In this document: positions 3,221 through 42,284 of the stretch, one piece after another
Layout of the letters: every line of letters begins with the position of its first letter
How positions within the stretch are numbered: position 1 is the stretch's first letter
Source: Thermodesulfobacteriales bacterium
Lineage (GTDB): Bacteria > Desulfobacterota > Thermodesulfobacteria > Thermodesulfobacteriales > Thermodesulfatatoraceae
Reading direction: 5' to 3'
Length of the DNA: 46,052 nucleotides
NCBI GenBank assembly: GCA_026986115.1
Contig: JALSPG010000053.1
Location: 1-46,052, forward strand
The notes under the pieces: model-generated
What the model saw: the letters and a program-made list of their open reading frames with translations, nothing else
What the model was told of the DNA's origin: nothing
The model's database searches: none
Translations under genes and position numbers: made by a program

Positions 3221-3664
3221 ATGAAGATAAATCGTGCTACGGATTATGGAGTGCGATTAATGGTTTATTTAGCCACTGAAGGGGGGAAAACCGTCCCCAG
3301 AGCGGAGGTATCTTCTGCCATGGATATCCCTTCAGAATTTTTGGCCAAGATTGCCCAACACTTAGCTCGGGCAGGACTTTTAGAGATTAAACAAGGTCGA
3401 ATGGGGGGATATCGTCTCAAGCGTTCTCCAGAAGAAATAACACTTTTAGAGATTGTAGAAGCTTTGGAAGGAGAAATTTTTCTCAATATCTGTGTAGGAG
3501 ATCCTAAAGCTTGCCGATTTAGTTCTACATGTAAGGTACATCTTGTATGGAAAGCAGCAAGAGAGGGGTTGCGAGATTTATTAGGCAGTATTCGCCTAAC
3601 AAATCTTATTATTAAAGAAAGACCTTTGCAAAATAGCCAAGAGCGATGTTGCAAGTACAACTAG
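3221..3664 (+). CDS. Rrf2-family transcriptional regulator, probable Fe-S ligand cysteines
   Basis: MKINRATDYGVRLMVYLA and KQGRMGGYRLKR are Rrf2 hallmarks; C-x6-C-x5-C-x2-H cluster (CVGDPKACRFSSTCKVH). Confidence 0.92.
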   Translation: MKINRATDYGVRLMVYLATEGGKTVPRAEVSSAMDIPSEFLAKIAQHLARAGLLEIKQGRMGGYRLKRSPEEITLLEIVEALEGEIFLNICVGDPKACRFSSTCKVHLVWKAAREGLRDLLGSIRLTNLIIKERPLQNSQERCCKYN

Positions 3665-3750
3665 AGGGGGATCCGTTCCCATTTTTCGGAACGAAAAATG
3701 GGAACGGATCCTTGATTAGGCCTTAAGAAAAGATGTTTTGCAAAGGTCTC
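3619..3750 (+). mobile_element. MITE-like palindromic element, copy A
   Basis: AGACCTTTGCAAAA at 3620-3633 is the reverse complement of TTTTGCAAAGGTCT at 3736-3749; flanked by AAAGA (3614-3618 and 3751-3755); internal perfect 20-bp inverted repeat; related copies elsewhere in the window. Confidence 0.8.
3669..3711. repeat. Perfect 20-bp inverted repeat with 3-nt loop
   Basis: GGATCCGTTCCCATTTTTCG-GAA-CGAAAAATGGGAACGGATCC read directly. Confidence 0.97.
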
Positions 3751-3780
3751 AAAGAGTAAATCCAAGGAGGAGGTGGGTTG

Positions 3781-5130
3781 ATGTTTGATGTAGTTTTACT
3801 TTCACGACTCCAATTCGCAGTGGCCTCTATGTTTCATTTTCTTTTTGTCCCCTTGACTTTGGGGCTTTCTGTTTTGACAGCCATTTTCGAAACCCTCTAT
3901 GTAAAGACTGGAGACGAAGATTACAAGCGAGCAGCAAAGTTCTGGGGCAAACTTTTTCTTATTAATTTCGCTTTAGGGGTGGTTACTGGTATAACTCTCG
4001 AATTTCAGTTCGGTACGAACTGGTCTCGCTATTCCATGTATGTGGGTGATATTTTTGGTTCTTTACTTGCTATTGAAGCTACTTTAGCTTTCTTTTTGGA
4101 ATCTACTTTTATTGCAGTTTGGCATTTTGGTTGGGATCGCCTTTCACCAAAGCTTCATGCCCTTTCTATCTGGTTGGTAGCTATCGCTTCTAACGTTTCT
4201 GCACTGTGGATTCTTTTGGCCAATGGTTGGATGCAACATCCTGTCGGTTATACCATCAGGAACGGACGTGCAGAGCTTGAGAGTTTTCGGGCAGTGGTGA
4301 CTAATTCCTTTGGTTGGATGGAATTTATCCATACAGTTTCAGGGGCCTACATTTTGGCAGGATTTTTTGTTTTAGGGATTTCGGCTTGGCATCTTTTACG
4401 GAAAAACGAAACAGTTTTTTTTAAAAAATGTTTTCGGGTAGCAGCTACGTGGACTCTTATCTTTGCCCTTTTTGAGGTTTTTAACGGGCATCTGCATGGA
4501 AGTGAAGTTGCCAAAGCACAACCTACCAAGTTGGCGGCTATGGAATCTCTTTGGGAAACCAAAAATGGAGCCCCAATGTATCTCTTTATAGTGCCTGACG
4601 AAGAAAATGAACGTAACAAGATAGAACTTTTTCCTATACCAGGGATGCTTAGTCTCCTTGCTTACCACAATCCTTCTGCTACAGTGAAAGGACTCAAGGA
4701 ATGGTCTGAGGAAGAGCGCCCTCCTGTTACACCAACTTTTTGGTCTTTTAGATTGATGGTAGGACTTGGTTTTCTATTTGCAGCTCTAAGTATTTGGGTC
4801 TTTTTAAAACGTCACGAAATTGAAAAAAACCATTTTCTCCTCAGAATTTTGCCTTGGATGATTCCGTTACCTTATCTCGCTTGTGAATTAGGCTGGATAG
4901 TAGCGGAGGTGGGACGCCAGCCTTGGATAGTTTATGGTTTGATGGAAACCAGTGCTGCGGTTTCTCCCCTTTCTCCCGTTCAGGTGGGAATTTCTCTTGC
5001 GGCCTTTATTTTGGTATATACCCTTTTGGGACTGGTAGATTTTTATCTTCTTTTCAAATATGCTCGTAAAGGCCCCGAGAAAATATCTCTCGCTCCCGTA
5101 TCTGCGGCAGGTTCTCCTGCCACTAATTAA
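3781..5130 (+). CDS. cydA: Cytochrome bd quinol oxidase subunit I
   Basis: CydA architecture with KAQPTKLAAMESLWET Q-loop motif and GRQPW motif; AAGGAGGAGG RBS before ATG 3781. Confidence 0.97.
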   Translation: MFDVVLLSRLQFAVASMFHFLFVPLTLGLSVLTAIFETLYVKTGDEDYKRAAKFWGKLFLINFALGVVTGITLEFQFGTNWSRYSMYVGDIFGSLLAIEATLAFFLESTFIAVWHFGWDRLSPKLHALSIWLVAIASNVSALWILLANGWMQHPVGYTIRNGRAELESFRAVVTNSFGWMEFIHTVSGAYILAGFFVLGISAWHLLRKNETVFFKKCFRVAATWTLIFALFEVFNGHLHGSEVAKAQPTKLAAMESLWETKNGAPMYLFIVPDEENERNKIELFPIPGMLSLLAYHNPSATVKGLKEWSEEERPPVTPTFWSFRLMVGLGFLFAALSIWVFLKRHEIEKNHFLLRILPWMIPLPYLACELGWIVAEVGRQPWIVYGLMETSAAVSPLSPVQVGISLAAFILVYTLLGLVDFYLLFKYARKGPEKISLAPVSAAGSPATN

Positions 5131-41139: not shown

Positions 41140-41234
41140 ACAGGATCCGTTCCTATTTTTTTTCGGGACGAAAAATAGGAACGGATCCTGTGATTGTGCT
41201 TACAACGCTGCTCTTAGCCATTTTGCAAAGGTCT
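41140..41234 (-). mobile_element. Palindromic element, copy B (one end + hairpin)
   Basis: Reverse complement AGACCTTTGCAAAATGGCTAAGAGCAGCGTTGTAAGCACAATCACAGGATCCGTTCCTATTTTT matches copy A's left half; perfect 20-bp stem 41141-41160/41171-41190. Confidence 0.8.
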
Positions 41235-42284
41235 CTACAAAATTAACATGGCGTCTCCGTAAGAGAAAAAACGATAGCGCCTTTTGATAGCTTCCGTATA
41301 GGCTCGCTTTATATTTTCAAGCCCGGCAAAGGCTGCTACCAAGATATAGAGACTCGATTTTGGAAGATGAAAGTTGGTAATCAGATGATCTACTACTTGG
41401 AACCGAAAACCAGGATAGATGTAAAGATCGCACCAAGCCGCAAGGGCTTTGACCTTTCCTTCTTGCTGCGCGGCAAACTCTAAAGCACGCAAAGTGGTAG
41501 TCCCTACAGCAAATACTGCTCGTCCTTCCTCTTTGGCCCGGTTTATTTCTTTGGCTACTTCTGGAGAAATTTCTACATACTCTTCATGCAATTGGTGTTT
41601 GCGAATATCTTTTGTCTTTACCGGGGCAAAGGTCCCATATCCTACATGAAGGGTTATAGCTAGAATTATTATTCCTTTTTTCTGGAGTTTTTTTAAAAGC
41701 TCTTCTGTAAAGTGAAAACCAGCGGTAGGAGCTGCCACGGAGCCTGGTTTTTGGGCATAAACTGTCTGATAACGAAAGAGATCTTCAATTTCCGGGGAGC
41801 GTTTAATGTAAGGCGGGAGGGGAACATGGCCTATCTCTTGAATAGTCTTCAAAAGGGATCCTGAAGATTCTAATAAGATTAGGGCCTTTCCCCCCTCTAA
41901 AATTTTGAGGATTTTTCCCCGCAATTTTCCCCCGAAGGAAAGTTCAAGACCTTCTCGGATCCTTTTTCCCCGGTAAAGAGCCGGTACTGGCTGGCCTTCT
42001 TGGGGCAGGCGCAAAAGAAGGATTTCTACCGTGCCTCCAGTGGGTTTCTGACCATAAAGACGTGCGGGAAATACCCGGCTGTCGTTTACCGCCAGAACAT
42101 CTCCTGGCCGGAAATACGCTTCAATAGCGCTAAATTTTTGGTGGTGAATGAGGCTGCCATCTTTCCGCTTGAGGACTAAGAGGCGGCTTTCTGTCCTTTC
42201 CCTAGAAGGATATTGAGCGATGAGTTCTGGTGGAAGTTCGTAATCATAGGTTTCGAGGTTATAAAGAGGCGGAATGTCACTCAT
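41235..42284 (-). CDS. queA: S-adenosylmethionine:tRNA ribosyltransferase-isomerase
   Basis: YELPPELIAQYPSRERTESRLLVL, DVLAVNDSRVFPARLYG, AAPTAGFHFTEELL and YTEAIKRRYRFFSYGDAMLI. Confidence 0.98.
   Translation of the reverse strand: MSDIPPLYNLETYDYELPPELIAQYPSRERTESRLLVLKRKDGSLIHHQKFSAIEAYFRPGDVLAVNDSRVFPARLYGQKPTGGTVEILLLRLPQEGQPVPALYRGKRIREGLELSFGGKLRGKILKILEGGKALILLESSGSLLKTIQEIGHVPLPPYIKRSPEIEDLFRYQTVYAQKPGSVAAPTAGFHFTEELLKKLQKKGIIILAITLHVGYGTFAPVKTKDIRKHQLHEEYVEISPEVAKEINRAKEEGRAVFAVGTTTLRALEFAAQQEGKVKALAAWCDLYIYPGFRFQVVDHLITNFHLPKSSLYILVAAFAGLENIKRAYTEAIKRRYRFFSYGDAMLIL

Follow-up and report, generated by a model that had tools for sequence, protein, structure and literature searches.

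An IS5-type MITE as the probable source of the C-terminal tail of an Rrf2 regulator upstream of cydA

The window analysed here, a 46,052-nt stretch of a Thermodesulfobacteriales contig, carries an rrf2-family regulator gene followed by cydA, and the question raised by this locus is where the last residues of the regulator come from. An initial annotation had proposed that a MITE-like element flanked by AAAGA rewrote the Rrf2 C-terminus, and the coordinates and the reading it gave for this element are exact (Table 1). The last 14 rrf2 codons (3620-3661) and the TAG that closes the frame (3662-3664) come from the inserted element, which reads R-P-L-Q-N-S-Q-E-R-C-C-K-Y-N-stop in the rrf2 frame and gives the ORF the C-terminal end RPLQNSQERCCKYN. 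Excision in silico of the element together with one copy of AAAGA reproduces the in-frame stop that had been predicted, leaving a 133-aa ORF that ends in LIIKE-TAA and is followed by the cydA ribosome-binding site. Comparison of sequences makes it very probable that insertion of a MITE gave Rrf2 its new 14-residue tail.

Table 1. Features of the rrf2-cydA junction (window coordinates) and tails of other genes capped by the same element family
Feature	Position	Strand	Details
rrf2-family regulator ORF	3221..3664	+	147 aa; Pfam Rrf2, E 2.3e-31, residues 3-130
Target-site duplication AAAGA, left copy	3614..3618	.	
IS5-type MITE	3619..3750	+	132 bp, against 131 bp as the norm for the family
Left terminal inverted repeat, AAGACCTTTGCAAAA	3619..3633	+	Family consensus GAGACCTTTGCAAAA
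Central palindrome	3669..3711	.	20-bp arms and 3-nt loop; module also found outside the GAGACC-type TIR family
Right terminal inverted repeat	3736..3750	-	GAGACCTTTGCAAAA on the - strand
Target-site duplication AAAGA, right copy	3751..3755	.	
Surviving pre-insertion sequence	3756..3780	+	Old stop TAA 3757-3759; cydA ribosome-binding site AAGGAGGAGG 3764-3773
cydA, cytochrome bd oxidase subunit I, 3' of rrf2	3781..5130	+	ATG at 3781; Cyt_bd_oxida_I, E 1.4e-181
RmlD			Tail ...KRPLQNILS
SulP-STAS permease			Tail ...KRSLQNSFS
Cytochrome b561-type protein			Tail RPLQNCRDQYCKHN...
HU-type protein			Tail ...KRPLQNIFS

The element has the structure of a MITE, being short, bounded by terminal inverted repeats (TIRs) and, at 132 bp, without room for a transposase gene. 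Its exact inverted arms (3620-3633 and 3736-3749) match at 14/14 positions, and the family terminus extends one base past them (GAGACC...GGTCTC), giving a TIR of 15 bp with 14/15 paired; the outermost left base of the window copy is A, not the G of the family. A perfect 5-bp duplication, AAAGA, surrounds the whole. The 20-bp arms of the central palindrome are also perfect, and as a DNA strand the element region folds at -38.7 kcal/mol compared with -13.1 in shuffles (z = -9).

Dispersed copies, as expected of a MITE, are present both in the genome itself and in its relatives. A DNA search of the 1.83-Mb genome returns 35 matches, around ten of them near-complete copies and the rest fragments or hairpin only, while ~10 of 60 genomes sampled contain matches and three relatives have dozens of copies. 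The 60 hairpin-bearing copies collected, among which a few entries repeat one copy with other boundaries or as overlaps, have a normal length of 131 bp and the terminus GAGACCTTTGCAAAA. Exact 5-bp duplications flank 12/36 copies, compared with 0.95% under a null in which the left flank of one copy was paired with the right flank of another, and duplications with at most one mismatch flank 23/36 (null 7.5%); some target duplications in the family are 6 bp long. This recurrence in the genome and its relatives rules out chance, and on the sequence evidence the AAAGA-flanked element is classed as a true insertion. Occupation of the rrf2-cydA site in one genome only might instead reflect a hairpin that was ancestral between the two genes and disappeared in other lineages; this is contradicted by the terminal repeats, the target duplication, the dispersal of the family and the existence of several relatives without the element, and the duplications found family-wide at unrelated sites already refute it, leaving it next to no probability.

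The ends of the element point to the IS5 family. In the complete genome of a relative (G003), elements of ~1160-1223 bp combine the GAGACCTTTGCAAAA TIR, which MITE and autonomous IS5-family element have in common, with an intact transposase that scores 244 bits against NF033581, the curated model for the IS5 family (cut-off 140), and has Pfam DUF772 and DDE_Tnp_1 matches. An intact homologue of this transposase, 79% identical, is found in another relative, where the TIRs are one or two mismatches off the consensus. The search for an autonomous partner in the genome that carries the window returned only decayed transposase fragments, most with stops, on three contigs of an assembly (137 contigs, ~97% complete) from which an intact copy could be missing. 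An autonomous partner in the same genome is not strictly required of a MITE.

Beyond these relatives, GAGACCTTTGCAAAA is listed as the TIR of ISNme1, an IS5-family element of Neisseria (PMC4596501, Table 2), and the GAGACCTTTGCAAAA / TTTTGCAAAGGTCTC ends of this element in Neisseria meningitidis are identical to the family consensus here. The proposed MITE of ISNme1 is ATR (PMC4596501); the host belongs to another phylum, the likeness rests on the TIR and not on the internal sequence of ATR, and the 43-bp palindrome is a feature of the family described here. Similarly, BrickBuilt and MITEPgRS of Porphyromonas gingivalis are MITEs with IS5-type GAGACC/GAGACT ends, BrickBuilt with duplications of variable length, although the passages of the same paper that concern them report internal tandem repeats and do not describe a central hairpin like that of the present family (PMC4596501). 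The element is accordingly classed as an IS5-type MITE because its terminus is common to intact IS5-family elements in relatives and to ISNme1.

Comparison with relatives bears on the state of the site before insertion. In six congeneric genomes rrf2 lies directly before cydA, with only a ribosome-binding site between them in 5/6, and the tail RPLQNSQERCCKYN is encoded by 0/6 of these orthologues. The rewriting of the C-terminus is thereby upheld, five junctions being free of inserts, and orthologues that lack the element yet retain the tail, for which a check had been proposed, are absent among the six congeners. The empty site predicted for the junction, ATTATTAAAGAGTAAATCCAAGGAGG, fared less uniformly in this comparison, which involves relatives at no more than 78% Rrf2 protein identity. 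The closest relative (G002, Rrf2 77-78% identical) aligns over the predicted join AAAGAGTAAATCCAAGGAGGAGG with one 2-nt gap and matches it at 19/23 bases, supporting the predicted sequence, but the exact LIIKE-TAA ending occurs in none of the orthologues. In G002 the TAA is out of frame through the 2-nt indel beside the site and Rrf2 is 141 aa long, within a range of 133-141 aa for the genus. In G003 (locus L039) the junction is occupied by a repeat of some 115-128 bp that is unrelated to the MITE and has kin elsewhere, chiefly in genome G007; the rrf2-cydA junction has thus received inserts twice.

The initial annotation had also called the insertion recent, which is not borne out. Against a consensus built from 46 copies, the copy in the window shows 86.4% identity, where the median copy shows 90.5%; since two relatives contribute most of these copies, part of the distance may be lineage divergence. 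In addition, the outermost TIR base has decayed and the search of the genome found no intact transposase. These comparisons place the insertion later than the divergence from the relatives sampled, and nothing closer in time is supported.

An IS5-family transposase acting in trans on GAGACCTTTGCAAAA ends would have put the element into the last rrf2 codons, duplicating AAAGA and shifting the native stop by 132+5 bp. The open 14-codon frame of the element capped rrf2 instead of destroying the gene, leaving intact both the conserved domain of Rrf2 and the ribosome-binding site of cydA. The change was most likely tolerated and near-neutral, which we take as the default reading since Rrf2 C-termini already vary in the genus. 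The two adjacent cysteines that the annotation had highlighted are present (Cys143 and Cys144) and element-derived, but the role implied for them in a regulator is unsupported: they lie beyond the domain, in which the native Cys91, Cys98 and Cys104 are intact. It is thus highly improbable that the added pair alters metal or redox sensing by Rrf2. Moreover, the one other gene entered by the element from the same end and in the same frame acquires the tail RPLQNCRDQYCKHNC..., so the cysteines follow the DNA of the element and not the host protein, and the tail residues arise simply from the frame in which the element is read.

In related heat-loving bacteria, at least four more genes of recognisable identity (RmlD, SulP-STAS, cytochrome b561-type and HU; Table 1) are capped by copies of the element, all past the conserved domains, and three further genes terminate exactly at a TIR boundary. 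All five capped genes use the AGA-CCT-TTG-CAA frame, encoding R-P/S-L-Q-N (R-S in one); the probability of one shared frame in five genes is ~0.01 under equal frame use, though from few cases. A non-coding mobile element has in this way extended a regulator gene without breaking it, with the same outcome repeated independently in four genes, and an R-P/S-L-Q-N tail serves as an annotation signature: such C-termini in these bacteria should not be taken for protein features. Gene capping by small elements has precedents. In Coxiella burnetii, in-frame insertion of QMITE2 at the 3' end of enhC adds 33 C-terminal residues to EnhC (PMC5896051), and the enterobacterial RU-1 likewise entered an amidase gene of E. 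carotovora in frame, providing new C-terminal residues (PMC2759123). QMITE2 and RU-1 belong to other element families, whereas the caps seen in the present family affect five genes, each time through one and the same frame; the capping of rrf2 is nonetheless a familiar kind of event.

The insertion may also be read as adaptive or regulatory, with the hairpin putatively attenuating, processing or insulating the transcript and uncoupling Rrf2 from cydAB expression. The hairpin lies directly after the new rrf2 stop, in a gene pair that adjoins across the genus, and folds strongly as RNA too (z = -5 for 3590-3810); the different repeat at this junction in one relative indicates that the spot accepts inserts repeatedly. 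However, neither strand has a T-run after the full hairpin, and only one terminator-like match was obtained (3666-3680), a stem of five pairs that competes with the 20-bp hairpin, against 1.1 such matches in shuffles; an intrinsic terminator at the element was rejected as no better than shuffles. The cydA ribosome-binding site is intact, and copies show no bias to gene 3' ends, adjoining 59 gene ends and 51 gene starts, roughly equal numbers as tolerated insertions would give. A regulatory role is therefore considered unlikely, and near-neutral tolerance is preferred.

The central hairpin is not confined to this family and is found between unrelated ends as well. Among 80 distinct occurrences, 57 are in the GAGACC family and 23 are outside it by the test used. 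Several of the latter (L010, L013, L029, L009, L271 and L078) sit between other inverted ends with a consensus near GGGAGCATTTTTTGTCGACA, and copies with such ends form a probable second MITE family. Elsewhere in the phylum the hairpin was matched in only 4/395 sampled genomes, and an Rfam search returned nothing above threshold, just chance hits of the miRNA type below it. Conservation of the stem is at the level of sequence; compensatory changes are not clear, and pair 12/32 is often C-A, so that the signal for RNA pairing is not strong. The simplest reading is that the hairpin spread as a MITE passenger. A tentative and rather doubtful idea is that MITE families with unrelated ends each gained the 43-bp palindrome separately, as a cassette open to exchange, and that it may have a function of its own (in processing of transcripts, binding of proteins or enhancement of transposition) which would now also act between rrf2 and cydAB. 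REP/RAYT systems have a short dispersed palindrome in common with this family, but the associated Y1 (TnpA-REP) transposase is absent here; such an origin was rejected, there being no Y1_Tnp (PF01797) match in the genome and no hairpin in the relative that has the most Y1 matches (22).

The MITEs themselves appear to receive other elements. In G003, the elements at three loci (L164, L165 and L166) are 1376-1544 bp long and have IS110-type transposase genes enclosed by MITE-type ends, which suggests that IS110 elements insert into the MITEs of this genome, much as QMITE2 in Coxiella draws insertions of IS1111. Elsewhere in the window, a second, truncated MITE copy lies at 41142-41235 on the - strand and comprises the hairpin and one arm with an intact terminus. 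The contig itself starts within a degenerate relative of the right arm of the element (1-80), and the assembly probably broke at a repeat copy.
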